Below are positions 7,650 through 43,494 of a stretch of DNA of 64,000 nt, piece by piece (positions within the stretch are counted from its first letter, which is position 1; every line of letters begins with the position of its first letter). The DNA lies in assembly GCF_000316645.1 (NCBI RefSeq), contig NC_019684.1, forward strand, positions 6,149,501 to 6,213,500, in the 5' to 3' direction. The notes under the pieces were generated by a model that saw only the letters and a program-made list of their open reading frames with translations, searched no databases and was not told the DNA's origin. Source of the stretch: Nostoc sp. PCC 7524. Lineage in GTDB: Bacteria > Cyanobacteriota > Cyanobacteriia > Cyanobacteriales > Nostocaceae. The translations under genes and the position numbers were made by a program.

Positions 7650-7713
7650 TGGTAGTAAGCGGCTCTAGGTTTGATTATTAAATCTAAACAGGACTAAAAT
7701 CCTTACTACAAAC
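7650..7713. repeat. Degenerate REP-like pair (GTAG plus palindrome family)
   Basis: The segment begins GGTAGTAAG and ends CCTTACTACAAAC, the signature ends of the REP family described at 16868-17623, with a diverged centre. It lies between the pmbA stop and the terminator. Confidence 0.55.
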
Positions 7714-9096: not shown

Positions 9097-9154
9097 GTTT
9101 GTAGTGAGGACTTTAGTCCTCATAATTTTGGGGACTGAAGTCCCCACTACGAAC
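9097..9154. repeat. REP pair between tldD and pmbA
   Basis: It starts GTTTGTAGTGAGGACTTTAG and ends CCCCACTACGAAC: two palindromes facing each other with GTAG-type feet outside. It sits between two co-directional genes of one operon, so it is probably transcribed. Confidence 0.75.
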
Positions 9155-12902: not shown

Positions 12903-12961
12903 AAACATATAAGAGTTTGTCTGCTTATCCTTCTAAGCAGTATCAGATAAAATTTTGTTCG

Positions 12962-12995
12962 ATTGGGTAGTGTTTCTACACATTACCCAATTTTT
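12962..12995 (+). terminator. Terminator between pilA and ogtA
   Basis: ATTGGGTA...TGT pairs with ACA...TACCCAAT and is followed by TTTTTGC. A second small hairpin (CTGCTTA/TAAGCAG, 12921-12940) precedes it. Readthrough from pilA into ogtA is probably partial. The terminator lies inside the longer open frame upstream of ogtA, which supports the later ogtA start. Confidence 0.7.
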
Positions 12996-13059
12996 GCAAT
13001 TTGCTTACCATGACATTACTTATCCAATTTACATCCCAACATTTTTATCCACTATCACT

Positions 13060-15279
13060 ATGCTTTCTTTAACTACTCCCAATGAATGGCATTATCGTGC
13101 TGAAAAATATTTACTCACCGGAAATTACTCACAGGCGGCTAGTCTCTACGAAGAAGCGATCGCCATAGAACCTGATGTTAAATCCTACTATTGGTATCTA
13201 GGATTAATGCTGCTGTTGCAAGAGCAAGATGTGGAAGCTCAAACAACTTGGTTGATAGCGATGATGGAAGGAGAACCGGAACAAGTTGAGCTTTGGAATA
13301 GTGAATTAGTAATAGTTCTGCAAACAGAGGCAGAAAGGCAGGAAGAATTAAAAGAATATTCAATTGCCAAGAAGATTCGTCAAAATATTAAAGAATTTTC
13401 TCCTCAAGATATTCACAATTTATTACATCTACTACAGCTAGCTATCAAGCTAGATGTCTATACAGGTGAAGATTTACAAGAATTAGGAATAATTGAAATT
13501 CTTCAATCTCAATCGATAGTAGAAGTCAATTTAGAACTATTGTTGCAATCTCTCCAGAATCTTCTAACTTATGATCCACTTCATCCATTAACGCTAAATT
13601 TTGTTGAAGAATGTTTACCATATTGTAAAAATAATACCCAAGATTTACTAATTATTTTATTACCAGCAGCCTTAGACATTGGTTATTCTCAAAAGCAATT
13701 TAGTATAGCAGTGAAACTGTGTGAACTATATTTAAATTTAAGCCCTAACAATACAGAATTTATCAGTCATTTGTCTAGCCTTTATCAAAATATTGGTCAA
13801 TATGAAAAAGGTATAGCATCTGCTAAATTATTATTTTCTTTAGTAGAAGAAGTCGCTGATAAAGTTTTTGCTAATCGCCAAATACTCAGAGGATTAATGA
13901 GTACAGGAGGTCATTGGGAAGAATCTTATTATGTATATCAAAGACAAGAAAAATTAATAAAATTTCTCATAGAAGATAATCATACACAACTAGATGTCTC
14001 TAGAATAGCTAGATTATTTAACGCTAACTTTTTTACTCCTTATATTGAAGATAATCCTATAAACACTAGAAATATTCAAAATCAGTTATTGCAGATTTGT
14101 CAAGTCAATATAAATAATTTGGAGCAAGAACACATAGAGAAGTATTCTCAGGGAAATCTGAACAGAAAAACACAAAAACAAATTAATAAAAAATTGAACA
14201 TAGGATATCTATCTCATTGCCTGAGAAGTCATTCTGTAGGTTGGCTAGCACGATGGTTATTTCAACATCATGACCGAGATAAATTTCAAGTCAATGGTTA
14301 TTTTATTAATACTAATCCAACTTTAGACCCTTTGCATGAATGGTATCTTACCAAAGTTGACAAAACTTATAAATCAAACGACTATTTGCAACTAGCTGAT
14401 GAAATCTACCAGGATGAAATTGATATTTTAATCGATTTAGATAGTATTACATTAGATACTACTTGTGACATCATAGCCCTGAAACCAGCACCCATTCAGG
14501 TTACTTGGTTGGGTTGGGATGCTTCAGGAAGCCCATCAGTTGATTATTTTATTGCTGATCCCTACGTTTTACCAGAATCAGCCCAGGAATACTACACAGA
14601 AAAAATTTGGCGTTTACCTCATACTTATATAGGAGTAGATGGCTTTGAGGTGAGTGTCCCTACAGTTAGACGTGAAGAATTAGATATTCCTAATGATGCA
14701 ATAGTCTATTTTTGTGGGCAAAGAGGCTTTAAGCGACATCCAGATATAACTAGACTGCAATTGCAAATTATCAAAGAAGTTCCCAATAGCTACTTTTTAA
14801 TCAAAGGAATGTCTGACGAAGAATCTACTAGAGTCTTCTTTGAAGAACTAGCAGACAAAGAAGGTGTAGAGATATCCCAACTAAGATTTCTTCCAGGCGT
14901 GATTTCAGAATCAGTTCATCGGGCTAATCTAGGAATTGCCGACATAGTATTAGATACCTATCCCTACAATGGAGCTACAACAACCCTAGAAACTTTGTGG
15001 ATGTGCATTCCAATGGTAACAAAGGTAGGTGAGCAATTTGCGGCGCGTAACAGCTACACCATGATGATGAATGCTGGTATTACAGAAGGTATTGCTTGGA
15101 CTGATGAAGAATATGTAGAGTGGGGTGTGCGCTTGGGTAAGGATGAAGCTTTAAGACAACAAATTGCTTGGAAGTTGAGACAATCAAGAAAAACATCACC
15201 GCTATGGAATGGTAAGCAATTTACCCGTGAAATGGAGAAAGCTTACACCCAAATGTGGGAAATATATACAAGTTCGTAG
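13060..15279 (+). CDS. ogtA: TPR / O-GlcNAc-transferase-like glycosyltransferase (SPINDLY family, OgtA-like)
   Basis: A 739-residue protein taken from the ATG at 13060. An upstream in-frame extension to 12955 overlaps a terminator and looks non-coding. Residues 1-380 are helical with TPR-like repeats (AEKYLLTGNYSQAASLYEEA, LYQNIGQYEKGIASAKLLF). Residues 380-735 form the GT41 catalytic region: NIGYLSHCLRSHSVGWL, APIQVTWLGWDASG, VDYFIADPYVLP, FCGQRGFKRHP, DTYPYNGATTTLE. GT41 enzymes transfer a sugar, usually GlcNAc, to Ser/Thr of proteins. Direct placement after pilA matches the Nostoc ogtA locus, so modification of pilin or other motility proteins is plausible but not shown. The stop codon TAG lies inside a REP element. 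Confidence 0.88.
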   Translation: MLSLTTPNEWHYRAEKYLLTGNYSQAASLYEEAIAIEPDVKSYYWYLGLMLLLQEQDVEAQTTWLIAMMEGEPEQVELWNSELVIVLQTEAERQEELKEYSIAKKIRQNIKEFSPQDIHNLLHLLQLAIKLDVYTGEDLQELGIIEILQSQSIVEVNLELLLQSLQNLLTYDPLHPLTLNFVEECLPYCKNNTQDLLIILLPAALDIGYSQKQFSIAVKLCELYLNLSPNNTEFISHLSSLYQNIGQYEKGIASAKLLFSLVEEVADKVFANRQILRGLMSTGGHWEESYYVYQRQEKLIKFLIEDNHTQLDVSRIARLFNANFFTPYIEDNPINTRNIQNQLLQICQVNINNLEQEHIEKYSQGNLNRKTQKQINKKLNIGYLSHCLRSHSVGWLARWLFQHHDRDKFQVNGYFINTNPTLDPLHEWYLTKVDKTYKSNDYLQLADEIYQDEIDILIDLDSITLDTTCDIIALKPAPIQVTWLGWDASGSPSVDYFIADPYVLPESAQEYYTEKIWRLPHTYIGVDGFEVSVPTVRREELDIPNDAIVYFCGQRGFKRHPDITRLQLQIIKEVPNSYFLIKGMSDEESTRVFFEELADKEGVEISQLRFLPGVISESVHRANLGIADIVLDTYPYNGATTTLETLWMCIPMVTKVGEQFAARNSYTMMMNAGITEGIAWTDEEYVEWGVRLGKDEALRQQIAWKLRQSRKTSPLWNGKQFTREMEKAYTQMWEIYTSS

Positions 15280-15305
15280 TGAGGGCTTTAGCCCTTACTA
15301 CAAAC
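15272..15305. repeat. REP element overlapping the ogtA stop codon
   Basis: It runs from GTTCGTAGTGAGGGC through TTAGCCCTTACTACAAAC. The first TAG in GTTCGTAG is the ogtA stop codon (AGT TCG TAG). It is a single palindrome with GTAG foot. Confidence 0.75.
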
Positions 15306-15440: not shown

Positions 15441-15860
15441 ATGTCTGCTAGAGATATCTTTCATCAAGTGGTCAAACAAGCTTTACAGAAAGATGGTTGG
15501 TACATAACTCACGACCCACTGACAATTAGTGTGGGTGGAGTGAATGTCTCTATTGATTTAGGAGCAGAAAAACTAATTGCAGCAGAACGGGAAGGAGAAA
15601 AAATTGCAGTCGAAGTCAAAAGTTTTTTGGAGAAGTCATCTGCAATATCAGAATTTCATACCGCATTGGGACAATTTATTAACTATAGAGCGGCACTGAG
15701 GCGACGACATCCAGAGCGTGTTTTATACTTAGCAGTACCTTTGACAACTTATAAAACATTTTTTCAACTTGATTTTCCTCAAGAAATGATTGAAGAGAAC
15801 CGAGTCAAGATGATTATTTATGATGTAGAAAAAGAGGTAATTGTTACATGGAAAAATTAG
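15441..15860 (+). CDS. xisH: XisH family protein (fdxN-element excision controlling factor homologue)
   Basis: A 139-residue XisH-family protein. The segment IDLGAEKLIAAEREGEKIAVEVKSF has the D...ExK pattern of the PD-(D/E)XK nuclease fold, which XisH proteins are thought to adopt. It overlaps xisI by 13 bases, so the pair is translationally coupled. In Anabaena 7120 XisH and XisI are accessory factors for fdxN-element excision by XisF. No recombinase or fdxN sequence is seen here, so this is one of the many stand-alone pairs, whose role is open. A toxin-antitoxin-like function is an inference. Confidence 0.9.
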   Translation: MSARDIFHQVVKQALQKDGWYITHDPLTISVGGVNVSIDLGAEKLIAAEREGEKIAVEVKSFLEKSSAISEFHTALGQFINYRAALRRRHPERVLYLAVPLTTYKTFFQLDFPQEMIEENRVKMIIYDVEKEVIVTWKN

Positions 15861-16183
15861 CTAAATATCGTAAAATTATACAACAAATATTACAAGATTA
15901 TAGCCAACAAAAACCTGATAATGGGAATATAGAAGTTGAAAATATTTTTGATACAGAACGTGATCATTACCAAATAGTTCATGTGGGTTGGGAAGGACAG
16001 GATTGGATACATAGTTGTATCATCCATATTGATATTAAAAATGAAAAAGTTTGGCTTCAGTGGAATGGCACAGAGGATGATATAGCAGCCAATTTAGTCA
16101 CTATGGGAGTTCCAAAAGAAGATATTGTTTTAGGTTTTCAATCTCCTTTTATGAGAAAATTTACAGAATATGCAGTTGGTTAA
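15848..16183 (+). CDS. xisI: XisI family protein
   Basis: A 111-residue XisI-family protein starting inside the end of xisH. Family-typical stretches are MEKLAKYRKIIQQIL near the N-terminus, HYQIVHVGWEG, IHIDIKNEKVWLQWNGTE and the C-terminal VLGFQSPFMRKFTEYAVG. The stop TAA shares the palindrome TTAA with the stop of the converging Uma2 gene. It is the partner of xisH; the biochemical role is unknown. Confidence 0.9.
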   Translation: MEKLAKYRKIIQQILQDYSQQKPDNGNIEVENIFDTERDHYQIVHVGWEGQDWIHSCIIHIDIKNEKVWLQWNGTEDDIAANLVTMGVPKEDIVLGFQSPFMRKFTEYAVG

Positions 16184-16867: not shown

Positions 16868-16922
16868 GTTTCGTAGTAAGGACTTCAGTCCTCGTTTAAG
16901 GGCTAAAGCCCTTACTACAAAC
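16868..16922. repeat. REP pair downstream of the RAYT gene
   Basis: It runs from GTTTCGTAGTAAGGACTTC to TTAGCCCTTACTACAAAC: two REP units in opposite orientation. Each has the GTAG-type foot and a palindrome (AGGACTTCAGTCCT; GGGCTAAAGCCC). It ends two bases before the RAYT stop codon. Confidence 0.85.
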
Positions 16923-16923
16923 A

Positions 16924-17553
16924 TTACAAATCCCAATCTTGACCATAATCTCGCACTGGATATTTAACCCAGCAATCACGTAACCATTGTCTTCCGCAAA
17001 CTTGTAAATACCAGTTCACACTACTTTCAACCCAGTCATAAGGAGATGTCACTAAACCATGTTTGACTGGATTGTAATGAATATAGTTAAACGTTGTATA
17101 GTAATGTCTTTCAGAACGAATAGCGCGATCGCTCCAAGAATACCAAATTTTTCGCTTGGTTACATTATCTTCAAGGTTCCATTGGCGTGAAGTCACACCA
17201 TGTATCTGGCGAAATAAGTCACTCAAGGCATCAAAATTTACAACCTCAACCAACAAATGATAATGATTCAGCAAAACAACCCAAGCACAAATAGTTATGT
17301 TCGTAGTAAGTGCTAAAGCACTTTCTTCTTCATCTCCACCATCACCAAACCTATCAAAAATCATATTGAGTAATTGCTGACGGCGAGATTCAGTGTGCAT
17401 ATAACACTGATGTTCATAACAAGTAGCCGTCAACAAATAGAGTCTTTTATCTTTTACTGGATATGGTGGCGCGTGCGGAGGATAGCCACGTTTCACGCGC
17501 TCTTCAATAAGTTCAGCTTTTTGTTCTGGCGTAAGTTTGCGATATTCATACAT
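16924..17553 (-). CDS. REP-associated tyrosine transposase (RAYT, Y1/IS200-like)
   Basis: A 209-residue single-domain Y1 transposase. The HUH metal-binding motif is NHYHLLVEV. The catalytic tyrosine probably lies in HYYTTFNYIHYNPVKHGLV, a signature stretch of TnpA_REP proteins. Unlike IS200 it is flanked not by insertion-sequence ends but by REP palindromes with GTAG feet on both sides (16868-16922 and 17560-17623), as for E. coli TnpA_REP. A further REP-like sequence lies inside the gene at 17299-17324 and is translated as SALALTTN, between the N-terminal region and the HUH motif. The N-terminus (LTPEQKAELIEERVKRGYPPHAPP) is typical of cyanobacterial copies. No tnpB or other transposase is adjacent. 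Confidence 0.9.
   Translation of the reverse strand: MYEYRKLTPEQKAELIEERVKRGYPPHAPPYPVKDKRLYLLTATCYEHQCYMHTESRRQQLLNMIFDRFGDGGDEEESALALTTNITICAWVVLLNHYHLLVEVVNFDALSDLFRQIHGVTSRQWNLEDNVTKRKIWYSWSDRAIRSERHYYTTFNYIHYNPVKHGLVTSPYDWVESSVNWYLQVCGRQWLRDCWVKYPVRDYGQDWDL
17299..17324. repeat. REP-like sequence inside the RAYT coding region
   Basis: GTTCGTAGTAAGTGCTAAAG followed by CACTTT: a GTAG foot and a palindrome AAGTGC/GCACTT, very like the REP just upstream of the gene (GTAGTAAGCACTTCAGTGCTT). It is in frame without a stop and adds about nine residues. Confidence 0.7.
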
Positions 17554-17559
17554 AGATAT

Positions 17560-17623
17560 TTAAGCACTGAAGTGCTTACTACAAACAAAAGTTTGTAGTG
17601 AGGACTTTAGTCCTCATTACTAC
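17560..17623. repeat. Two REP units head to head upstream of RAYT
   Basis: The first unit (17560-17586) ends GTGCTTACTACAAAC. The second (17591-17623) starts GTTTGTAGTGAGGACTTTAG. They lie six bases from the RAYT start codon and touch the stop codon of the 1323-residue gene at 17623. Confidence 0.85.
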
Positions 17624-20600
17624 TAAGACAAACAAAAAGAATCTTTCTCTTGCGCCTGACTCAAGCTTTCTAAGTTATAGGTTAATAAAGTTTCTGCTTT
17701 AGCTTGAATGAGTGCATCTTGGTTTTCATATTGCAAAGCAATGCGGGCGTGAATACGAGGTAATAAAGCTTGCCACTGAATATCACTCAAACTTTCCACA
17801 AGAGAAATTTCTAATCCCTCAGTTACATCTAAATCTTCTTCCATCAGCAGATTCATTGCCACAGCCGATAACAATAGTTCAACATCCTCAACAGCAACAT
17901 TATTAATGTTGATTAGTAACGTGGTTTTTTCACTATTAGGATGAGTTGCCACTGCCTTAATCACCTGTTCCAATTCTGAACTAATCAACTCTTCTGGTTG
18001 CAACCAATCAGGGAAAATAATTAAGTTGATATCTCCTAAGCGTAAATTTTGACTGAGAGTATCAGCCATATAATTACTGAAGAGTTCTTGGAATAGGTTT
18101 CCTATTTTAGCTGAGTAAGAGCGACTATCTAAAAAACTAGGATTACTCTGCATTTTTTCTTTGATTTGGACGCTCTTTTCTCGCCGCAATTCCGAATTTG
18201 TACCTAATGCAACTGCTAACTCAATGTAAGATTCTTCACTATCTGCAACTAAATTAGGAATATCCAATGTTTGTATTATCGCTGCTCCCATTGCAGAACG
18301 AAAACAATTTCCTTGTCTAGCGATGACAGGTAAATTAACCTGTAGTGGTTCTATTAATGAAGTTGTTCCGGCAAATGGATAGGAATCTAAATAAACATCG
18401 GCAATTTTATAGTATTCCTTCATATCTTCCCGATCTGGGACGGGTTGAGGATCTAAGACTATTAGGCGTTCAGTAGCTAACCCATGCTTAGAAAATATAG
18501 ATTTCAGGTGATGGATAAATTCTATTTTTGGATAATTATTTGACCAATTTAGCCCAAATGGTAAAAGAACTAAAACAGAATTTGAAACTTTAGAGATAAT
18601 TTTAGCCCATGTCCCCATCAATTCTGGAACTGTTTTAAAGTAATTAGCACCAGAGATAAAAACAACAGCATCTTCAGGAACTCCTAAACTATTCCGCTCA
18701 ACGGGAGTTGTTAATTTTCCTTCTTCAGTACCATAACTAAAACAGTGAGCAGTTCCTTCTAGTTTGATTAATTTTTCTTGATAGTGGTCTTGTGCTGTTG
18801 GTGAAGGATCAGTTAATGTACCGGAAATATAATAATCTACATTTCTCATTCCAGTTGTCACAACAGAACCGCCGCTAGTTACTTGTATTCTAGCTAATCT
18901 ATGAATTGCTAATAGGCAGATTTGATTAGTTACTGCGGTTACATTAGTTGCAATGAATAATATATCTAAGTCATCACTACGAATTGTATTAATCTGTTCC
19001 GATAAATTTTGTGGTAACAGTTTAAAAGAGTTTGCAGACAATTGACAATATTGCTCTAATCTATGACCTGTTTCGATAAGTGAGTACAAAATTACTTCAA
19101 AATCTCGACTGATATATTCATAAACAGGAAGATAGGCAAACGTTTCGGCTGAGGGTGTAAAATGTGCTGCTAGGATACCCAGCCTAATTTTTTTTCGGTT
19201 TACAGGCGTATCTGTAAATTCATAATTAATTTCTTGTCCCTTGAGTTTCAATAAATATTCTATTATTTCTGCGCGTTTAACATATATATTTTTTAAATTT
19301 ATCTCGTTAAAGTAAGCTTGGATAAAATTGACATTTTGGGCAAAATGCTCAACTATTTGATTCCATAAATCAGAATCAGAATTACTGAATGTAGATGCGT
19401 GTAGATAATCAAGTGACTTCTGTAAGTATTCAGAGTAATTATCTGCCTCATCAATTTCTAGGAAATAAGGTTTAGGAGAAAACAGAAATTTTAAATAACC
19501 ATTTTCCTCAATTATCTGCTGATATTGGTGAAAAACTTTAGCATTTACATTAATTTGATTTTCACTTATATCAGATATTGGTTTAACTACACGTAATTCT
19601 GCTATAACATGAATGACGTTACCAGGAGATTCTTCCTGTTCAAGTTGCACAATATTAAACTCACCTTTAAATCCATACTTTCTACAAAGCTGTAGATAAA
19701 CAGGGAATTCACTACAGTAGTAGAGGAAAGAATTAATATTCCAAAAACTGACGTGAGTTGGATCTTGAAAAGCACCTCTCCCATCTGTAGATGGTACTCG
19801 AATATCAACTTTTGCACCAGGTTTACAGACTCTCCAAATCTCATTCATTGTATGAATTCTGTCTTGGAGATGCTCAATAATATCATGCGCCTTTAATTCA
19901 TCTACAGAACTATCAGGCAATGGAAATTTTTTATTTAAATCTGCAACAATATCAACGGATGGATCATTACAAATATCAACTCCAATAAACCCAACACTCT
20001 TATTAGCCCCACAGCCTAAATCAATTCTTACTGTTTGTCTATTTAACTGTTTTAAATAGCTAGAGATAGTATCTTGATGTTCATGTTCTTGGTTTGAAAC
20101 TTTATTTTTTTTCTTTATTATTACGATAGCATCACTATAAATTTCACCAAATTGTCTGTCTTGGCTATCATAAAAATGAATAAATTCAATATTTTCTTGA
20201 ATATCCTTTAATGTCTCAATTTTTAAAAATTGGGTGTCATTAATAATTCCATTTTCTAGAGATTTAAGAATCTCTTTAGTGGTTGTAATTCCTGGATATT
20301 CTATCTCACATGGCTGATAGTGTAAGTCTTCAATAATATAAAATCCACCTTCCCGAAGATGTTTAAACAGATATCCTAATGCTATCTGTTGATGATGAGA
20401 AGCATGGCTAGCATCATCAATTATAACATCAAATTTTGACGGATTTTCTTGCACTAATATTTGAAGATCGGATATTTTCCCCATATCACCACGTATAATT
20501 TTGACATTTTCTAAAGGTAGACATTTAGAGAAATCAGCAATATCAAAACCTACAATAAAGGCGTGAGGGAAATATTCTCTCCACATTTTTAGGCTAGGCG

Positions 20601-21594
20601 CATCATCATAAGGTCCTCCTGGATTTCTTTTTTGAACATCATGCCGAAGAAGACCTAGTTCGAGCAAATTTATATTTGAATCTTTATATTTAGAAAGATA
20701 TTTTTGATAAATTGAAGCATAACCATGACAATTATAATATAGACTTCCTTTGTCAGTCTTATACTTATTGGCTATAACTTCAAGCTCCCATATGTATTTT
20801 CTATATGGTAGCTTCTTGTAAGCTCCTATTTCTAAATAATGTTGTCTTGGTGACATATGAGAAGTTGTCACTTCTGGATTCAACCATGAATAAATTTCAT
20901 CTTTAAACCCCGGTGGTAGCCGAGGAATAGTTCCTTTAGGTGCTAACCACTCAATTATAGGATTAGATATCAATGAGCCATTAAATAACGAATATTTAAA
21001 ATTCCGATGCCAAGCAACGAAAGGAAAAGATAGCTGATCTCTTTTAGAGAATCTTAGAACATGGTTAAACCATTCTTCTGTTAGTTCTATCAATTTTGTG
21101 TCTAAATGTTTACGCAGTAGTATTGTTCCTGCAATTAATCCTTGATGTTTTGGAAATCCTTGTAATTGATAAAAATCTAGTTGTTCTCTAACTCTACACT
21201 CATCTTCTAGTCCTGAATGAATTACGACTTCTCCTTCGTCATATATACAATCACGCCAAGGATGATTAAAACAAACAAGTGAAGATTGTGAATTTATATA
21301 CTTCTTGAAAATATCTAACGGATCTACTTTAAAATCTATGGTGTTATCAATATATAAACTATGTTCAAAATCAGATAAAAAATGATGTGGTAACAACTTT
21401 GGTCGCCGAGATTCCCGTTCTGCTTTCAGGCTATGATTGTCTATAAGTACAATTGACCAATCTTTAGATTGCAATTCTGGATTATCTGTGAAACAAATCC
21501 TTTCATAACCAAAAGAATCATTTGGGAAAGGATTTCTAAGATTTTCTTTATAGCCAGTGAGAACTGTATAAACAACACATTTATTTTGATTCAT
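17623..21594 (-). CDS. Four-module protein: DUF616-like glycosyltransferase, two methyltransferases, GT41-like glycosyltransferase
   Basis: A 1323-residue cytoplasmic fusion. Module 1 (about 1-215) starts CVVYTVLTGYKENLRNP and resembles the DUF616/TOD1-like glycosyltransferase group. Module 2 (about 270-495) is a class I methyltransferase of the macrocin/cephalosporin-hydroxylase type (NLLELGL, VGFDIAD, VIIDDASHASHHQ, GGFYIIEDLH). Module 3 (about 520-670) is a second SAM methyltransferase (VRIDLGCGANKS, LKAHDIIEHL). Module 4 (about 800-1180) is GT41-like (KIRLGILAAHF, RIQVTSGGSV, DVYLDSYPFAGTTSLIE). A C-terminal tail (INLIIFPDWLQPEE..., MEEDLDVTEG) follows. The order suggests building and methylating a glycan on a protein or polymer; the substrate is unknown. 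Start ATG at 21594. Confidence 0.75.
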   Translation of the reverse strand: MNQNKCVVYTVLTGYKENLRNPFPNDSFGYERICFTDNPELQSKDWSIVLIDNHSLKAERESRRPKLLPHHFLSDFEHSLYIDNTIDFKVDPLDIFKKYINSQSSLVCFNHPWRDCIYDEGEVVIHSGLEDECRVREQLDFYQLQGFPKHQGLIAGTILLRKHLDTKLIELTEEWFNHVLRFSKRDQLSFPFVAWHRNFKYSLFNGSLISNPIIEWLAPKGTIPRLPPGFKDEIYSWLNPEVTTSHMSPRQHYLEIGAYKKLPYRKYIWELEVIANKYKTDKGSLYYNCHGYASIYQKYLSKYKDSNINLLELGLLRHDVQKRNPGGPYDDAPSLKMWREYFPHAFIVGFDIADFSKCLPLENVKIIRGDMGKISDLQILVQENPSKFDVIIDDASHASHHQQIALGYLFKHLREGGFYIIEDLHYQPCEIEYPGITTTKEILKSLENGIINDTQFLKIETLKDIQENIEFIHFYDSQDRQFGEIYSDAIVIIKKKNKVSNQEHEHQDTISSYLKQLNRQTVRIDLGCGANKSVGFIGVDICNDPSVDIVADLNKKFPLPDSSVDELKAHDIIEHLQDRIHTMNEIWRVCKPGAKVDIRVPSTDGRGAFQDPTHVSFWNINSFLYYCSEFPVYLQLCRKYGFKGEFNIVQLEQEESPGNVIHVIAELRVVKPISDISENQINVNAKVFHQYQQIIEENGYLKFLFSPKPYFLEIDEADNYSEYLQKSLDYLHASTFSNSDSDLWNQIVEHFAQNVNFIQAYFNEINLKNIYVKRAEIIEYLLKLKGQEINYEFTDTPVNRKKIRLGILAAHFTPSAETFAYLPVYEYISRDFEVILYSLIETGHRLEQYCQLSANSFKLLPQNLSEQINTIRSDDLDILFIATNVTAVTNQICLLAIHRLARIQVTSGGSVVTTGMRNVDYYISGTLTDPSPTAQDHYQEKLIKLEGTAHCFSYGTEEGKLTTPVERNSLGVPEDAVVFISGANYFKTVPELMGTWAKIISKVSNSVLVLLPFGLNWSNNYPKIEFIHHLKSIFSKHGLATERLIVLDPQPVPDREDMKEYYKIADVYLDSYPFAGTTSLIEPLQVNLPVIARQGNCFRSAMGAAIIQTLDIPNLVADSEESYIELAVALGTNSELRREKSVQIKEKMQSNPSFLDSRSYSAKIGNLFQELFSNYMADTLSQNLRLGDINLIIFPDWLQPEELISSELEQVIKAVATHPNSEKTTLLININNVAVEDVELLLSAVAMNLLMEEDLDVTEGLEISLVESLSDIQWQALLPRIHARIALQYENQDALIQAKAETLLTYNLESLSQAQEKDSFCLS

Positions 21595-43436: not shown

Positions 43437-43494
43437 GTTTGTAGTAAGGACTTTAGTCCTGAGAACGTTAAGGACTAAAGTTCTTACTACAAAC
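43437..43494. repeat. REP pair after htpG
   Basis: GTTTGTAGTAAGGACTTTAG at the left and AAGTTCTTACTACAAAC at the right: two REP units facing each other. It ends two bases before the htpG stop codon. Confidence 0.85.

Follow-up and report, generated by a model that had tools for sequence, protein, structure and literature searches.

A RAYT gene of Nostoc sp. PCC 7524, the GTAG-footed REPs linked to its clade and a REP conserved inside the gene

RAYTs belong to the domesticated transposases. The 64,000-nucleotide stretch of contig NC_019684.1 of Nostoc sp. PCC 7524 analyzed here (hereafter, the window) carries a gene of this kind amid short palindromes with a GTAG foot (REPs), more of which are dispersed along the window. 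A first-pass annotation had taken the gene and its flanks for a REP/RAYT unit and the transposase for the source of the dispersed repeats. Did this RAYT spread the REPs, and does the REP family depend on it today? The locus is well suited to the question. One RAYT at a fixed position, present or absent among close relatives, provides matched genomes in both states, which make the dependence of REPs on the RAYT directly testable. We consider it likely that the locus represents a REPtron, in which a RAYT of subclass 2.8, inherited vertically, has its own clade-specific GTAG REPs, with past REP copying, an ancient REP inside the gene and repeated loss of the gene.

The gene has exactly the coordinates first proposed for it (Table 1), and the genome contains one copy of its clade. 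We assign it as a RAYT (TnpA_REP) with subclass 2.8 features. NHYH, WY, YIHYNP and a proline-rich N-terminus are features of TnpA_Y1 subclass 2.8 in the published classification (Quentin et al. 2018, PMC6006769). General profiles score the window protein below their cut-offs: 76.7 bits with NCBIfam REP_Tyr_transpos (NF047646; cut-off 80), a weak 21.4 bits with Pfam Y1_Tnp (PF01797; cut-off 23) and 15.6 bits with the IS200 model (cut-off 55). Six clade members among its relatives that are free of the in-frame insert described below reach 93.5-99.7 bits with NF047646, and this insert may cause the shortfall of the window RAYT. A search of the PDB with the clade profile gave the E. coli TnpA_REP structure 4er8 as top match (E 8.7e-14). 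The same structure is the best fold match (E 1.3e-08) of the AlphaFold2 model of the window RAYT (mean pLDDT 82.7). N96-H97-Y98-H99, Y157 and N161 are invariant in 39 aligned sequences and align with 4er8. An ordinary IS200/IS605 element is ruled out by the poor match to the IS200 profile and by the single copy.

REPs were searched with the pattern GTAGTRAGNNCTNNAGNNCT, either exactly or allowing one mismatch. Under the latter rule, the window contains 12 matches, 10 of them exact, where 0.02 are expected; none of 100 shuffles of the window reached 12. The predicted bracketing of the RAYT by GTAG-footed pairs is confirmed, with exact REPs on both sides. REP units had also been announced near 7650, 9097, 15272 and 43437; the latter three are exact matches and the one near 7650 is recovered only with one mismatch. 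Upstream of the RAYT, the overlapping matches at 17595-17614 (+) and 17601-17620 (-) form one double-footed palindrome. The REPs have perfect stems of 6-8 bp and loops of 2 nt.

Table 1 Features of the window; position 1 is its first nucleotide
Feature	Position	Strand	Remarks
Dispersed REP pair	7652..7709		GTAGTAAG at 7652 (+); 7690-7709 (-), 1 mismatch
Dispersed REP pair	9101..9150		9101-9120 (+); variant partner with GTAG foot at 9150 (-), outside the exact pattern
Glyco_transf_41 (GT41) protein gene	12955..15279	+	homologue near the RAYT in 29/29 long-clade genes
Double-footed REP	15276..15301		overlaps the GT41 stop codon
REP pair downstream of the RAYT	16873..16918		16873-16892 (+), 16899-16918 (-), exact; GTAG feet outward
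RAYT / TnpA_REP gene	16924..17553	-	209 aa; NHYH, catalytic-Tyr motif NYIHYNPVKHG, proline-rich N-terminus
Long-clade in-frame insert region	17299..17346	-	codons 70-85; 12 aa here; short clade without it
In-gene REP	17303..17322	+	exact; foot on the complement of the coding strand; codons 78-84
REPs upstream of the RAYT	17563..17620		17563-17582 (-), 17595-17614 (+), exact, feet inward; 17601-17620 (-), 1 mismatch
Multi-domain glycosyltransferase (Glyco_transf_41 plus others)	17623..21594	-	end just upstream of the RAYT
Dispersed REP pair	43441..43490		43441-43460 (+), 43471-43490 (-)

The genome-wide palindrome search suggested by the first-pass annotation returned 94 exact matches, and none for a reversed-pattern control. 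Neighbouring matches at most 100 nt apart number 26, of which 25 are feet-out and 1 is feet-in. Three of the 25, at distance 6, each represent one double-footed palindrome, so that 22 feet-out pairs remain. This corresponds to the REPIN arrangement, in which a short spacer separates two REPs in inverted orientation and for which about 0.13 neighbouring pairs are expected by chance. Most exact REPs outside the 22 pairs are solitary. Another genome, G035, which carries a short-clade RAYT (locus L027), has 1023 exact REPs; many of those listed are arrayed with a spacing of roughly 28-80 bp.

The clade is composed of a long sub-clade, whose members carry about 8-14 additional residues as an in-frame insert, and a short sub-clade from which the insert is absent. 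The 29 long-clade genes span 10 genus labels; they include that of G008, which has an internal stop, and that of G087, matched only from residue 15. A tolerant scan within 350 nt found REPs on both sides of 27 of the 29 long-clade genes. With the same scan, 9 of 18 short-clade genes have REPs on both sides and 12 on at least one side; other REP stems flank some short-clade genes. A wider hairpin scan covered 54 of 80 named loci, one from the long clade and the others from outside it. These loci come from the best 80 of 126 homologues, which include Chloroflexi, a Deltaproteobacterium, Verrucomicrobia and others. In the 54 loci, the density of GTAG hairpins is 4.19 per kb within 250 nt of the gene versus 0.10 per kb at 1-1.5 kb; 31 have at least one hairpin near the gene, 17 have hairpins on both sides and 23 have none. 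In the homologues L233, L235, L237 and L238 from other phyla (Verrucomicrobia, Chloroflexi and related MAGs), GTAG-footed flanking hairpins have different stems, suggesting that stem and protein change together. A specific link of REP type to RAYT clade is thus supported and, with the identity of the RAYT, the reading of the locus as a REP/RAYT unit stands.

Known systems share parts of this arrangement. E. coli TnpA_REP (4ER8) has the same fold, the HUH and Tyr centre and the GTAG foot. The E. coli-like arrangement initially proposed holds for the foot, but the likeness is otherwise loose: E. coli REPs are bulged whereas those of the window are perfect palindromes, and the window protein, with 209 aa, has a longer N-terminal part. 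Subclass 2.8 (PMC6006769) is cyanobacterial and shares NHYH, W[YH], YIHYNP, the proline-rich N-terminus and GT[AG]G REP flanks. Its table lists 8 members; here we distinguish two sub-clades, one of them at a fixed locus. The presence of a REP insertion in some subclass 2.8 genes is already published, and insertions in subclass 2.4 were suggested to have little impact on the protein (PMC6006769). What our data add is an in-gene REP shared by 29 orthologues, and a comparison of RAYT presence or absence with REP counts. Group 3 REPtrons of S. maltophilia and Marinomonas (PMC8266576) also have perfect palindromic REPs but belong to another protein subclass; Tyr138 of the window RAYT aligns with E. 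coli Q95, a position relatively conserved in group 3. The cyanobacterial GTAG families 12, 15 and 16, taken together (Di Nocera et al. 2013, PMC3733652), are likewise GTAG-tagged palindromes of Anabaena/Nostoc. REPINs (Bertels and Rainey 2011, PMC3116915), studied in a set that included Nostoc punctiforme, share the REP doublet as spreading unit; here, in contrast, 22 feet-out pairs occur among 94 exact REPs and the rest are mostly solitary.

Beyond what had first been annotated, the 29 long-clade genes all lie beside a GT41-type glycosyltransferase gene. At 23 long-clade loci the homologue falls inside a flank of 1.2 kb and is 62.8-81.8 % identical; identity is 69-79 % for four congeners, and G018 has 46.7 %. 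In the window, the GT41 gene is 1.6 kb from the RAYT. No GT41 homologue was found in the examined flanks of the 18 short-clade loci. Eight congeners have the same site without the RAYT. Because G018, which belongs to another genus, shares the site, we infer that these eight cases are losses. In the GT41 gene tree, several nodes of which are weak, genomes with and without the RAYT are intermixed. The long clade is best read as one ancestral locus, inherited vertically and subject to repeated loss.

REP number was compared across 217 genomes of the family. The clade is present in 45 of them, at E values up to 1e-20 and counting fragments, and absent from 172. One clade match is present in 39 of the 45 and two in 6; four of these 6 contain pieces of one broken gene, and G110 and G113 contain two loci. 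The median REP number is 52 with the clade versus 7 without. After removal of locus-borne REPs, the medians are 47 versus 7 (Mann-Whitney p 2.3e-7), with a genus-stratified permutation p of 2e-4, which is the minimum for 5000 permutations and leaves kinship within genera uncorrected. When a flat 12 REPs are subtracted from each clade genome, the stratified p is 0.11 and the signal is gone; for the short clade alone it is 0.051. The two distributions overlap: 31 of the 172 clade-less genomes have at least 50 REPs, and 8 of the 45 clade genomes have fewer than 10, seven of these with the short clade or a fragment. In the genus of the window, REP numbers are 24, 94, 162, 184 and 272 with the clade and 3, 6, 44, 58, 79, 147, 222 and 243 without, two overlapping groups with no clear difference. 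The lowest value with the clade belongs to G008, whose RAYT (L019) has an in-frame TAA; its exact share is also low (24/59).

Three clade-less genomes of this genus exceed the 94 exact REPs of the window's genome. G002 has 147 exact REPs, and searches with PF01797 and NF047646 at E 0.001 found no Y1 transposase in it. G010 has 222 and a RAYT of another clade. G001 has 243 exact of 287 REPs at up to 1 mismatch, the highest exact share among 13 genomes of the genus, and its REPs are not visibly decayed. The RAYT is therefore associated with REP number, and, given REP-rich clade-less genomes such as G002 and G001, a high REP number today does not need it. The initial claim that this RAYT is the source of the dispersed REPs is supported as a statement about the past, by the clade-specific flanking and the difference in medians, and is not supported as one about present-day dependence, for which these three genomes give the outcome that the first-pass annotation had named as refuting. 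Several clade-less genomes suggest that REPs can persist without the RAYT clade. In such REP-rich lineages, either the loss is recent, or REPs decay slowly, or REPs are useful to the host.

In a rival reading, the host would retain the REPs through selection because they serve as transcription terminators or as structures at mRNA 3' ends, or the REPs would have been amplified otherwise, and the RAYT would now be domesticated to another role, its flanks being no more than its own binding sites. The REP-rich clade-less genomes, with G002 among them, speak for this scenario, as do the REP that overlaps a stop codon at 15276 and the low degeneracy of the G001 REPs. Nevertheless, clade genomes carry more REPs also when compared genus by genus, the REP/RAYT pairing is clade-specific and the 22 feet-out pairs are REPIN-like, so that we regard the scenario as unlikely. 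Spread in trans by another Y1 transposase, whether of IS200 type or from the two other RAYT genes in the Nostoc genome (G000), could be imagined in view of the further Y1 genes of this genome and of the 16 PF01797 matches in G001. It appears highly improbable: the exact REP occurs within 1.5 kb of none of the 59 non-clade Y1 loci examined, which represent 43 distinct places, and, in eight REP-rich clade-less genomes, a REP lies within 1.5 kb of 1 of the 30 Y1 loci examined, out of 53 places found (none in G002). The two other G000 RAYTs (C2:1374141-1374593 and 1791755-1792150) belong to different clades. Within 1.5 kb of them, neither this REP nor GTAG hairpins of the generic scan were found, and they were rejected as current drivers for want of such a REP.

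For the preferred REPtron reading, a course of events can be proposed. As in its relatives, the RAYT protein would most likely bind the REP in its folded, single-stranded form, GTAG foot included, and would cut and join DNA beside it via the HUH-Tyr centre. In the past, this activity may have spread copies of REP pairs through the genome. Long ago, in the ancestor of the long sub-clade, a REP would have inserted into the RAYT gene itself, in frame and at a surface loop, where it is still found with foot and stem largely intact, for reasons weighed below. The gene, today present or absent at one ancestral locus, would have been lost repeatedly, REPs often persisting after it had gone.

The in-gene REP at 17303-17322 had escaped the first-pass annotation. 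It constitutes the second part of the insert and occupies the same codons in all 29 long-clade orthologues. CTAC, the complement of the foot, is unchanged in 29/29. The six stem pairs are all intact in 20 genes, five are intact in 8 and four in 1; an automatic scan whose rules for foot and loop were fixed detected the REP in 26 of the 29. In two longer proteins with an insert elsewhere, we found no REP (L209) or only a weak 5-bp hairpin (L216). In the AlphaFold2 model, residues 72-82 have pLDDT under 50, and the insert region is predicted to be probably a disordered loop. Insert residues 71-77 are variable; the stretch SAxALTTN varies little except at x.

Is the hairpin maintained as such, or does it survive only through the conserved peptide SAxALTTN, the REP being a neutral fossil? 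We give the latter an even chance. In its favour, only two of the six stem pairs are free of first or second codon positions, and the stem is imperfect in 9 of 29 genes. Yet this peptide lies largely in the low-confidence, probably disordered loop, of which residues 71-77 vary freely, and the invariant CTAC also argues for more than a fossil. One stem pair is mostly silent; it is C-G in 17 genes, T-A in 10 and mismatched in 2, hence matched in 27 of 29. In a Pagel test of this pair, dependent evolution was preferred over independent evolution (likelihood ratio 14.1 on 4 extra parameters). The independent switches behind the coupling are few (5 parsimony changes of the pair), and controls are as strong in 8 of 1035 third-position pairs, in 1 of 158 nearby pairs and in 3 of 92 cases where either site of the pair was matched with other positions. 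In G092, a second stem pair is swapped on both sides, with two amino acids changed. None of 500 shuffles reached the observed value for pairing, for doubly changed cells or for the covariation score. No excess is seen for the two other measures, namely pairs changed on both sides (104/500) and pair types (500/500), and with the partner shifted by +3 the covariation score is 0.172, slightly above the 0.157 of the true register. At codon 80, positions 1 and 2 vary and the third is always A, a weak test since 4 of the 41 columns with at least 5 first- or second-position changes, codon 80 included, show no third-position change. There is thus modest evidence for compensatory silent change in the in-gene REP, and the sequence comparison favours, without proving, selection on the hairpin at the nucleic-acid level.

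Copying from the genomic REP pool as a cause of hairpin retention is argued against in G000 only: the stem type of the in-gene REP, GTGC, occurs once among the 94 exact REPs, and only in the RAYT gene. Tentatively, and with more doubt than confidence, we propose that the in-gene REP may be a working cis element. The transposase would recognize this hairpin, whether in its gene, in the mRNA or in DNA under replication, thereby limiting its own expression or tying its persistence to that of its substrate, under nucleic-acid selection since the sub-clade arose. The conserved in-gene REP is thus a concrete candidate for self-regulation. In the literature available to our search, we found no published description of its conservation or of the GT41 locus.

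Two minor observations concern the window itself. Residue 95 of its RAYT, directly before NHYH, is Leu, and Pro in all 46 other aligned clade members; the window gene could be a damaged or sequencing-altered copy. Finally, two small ORFs at 15441-16183, which we take to resemble XisH/XisI, lie beside a Uma2-type gene.
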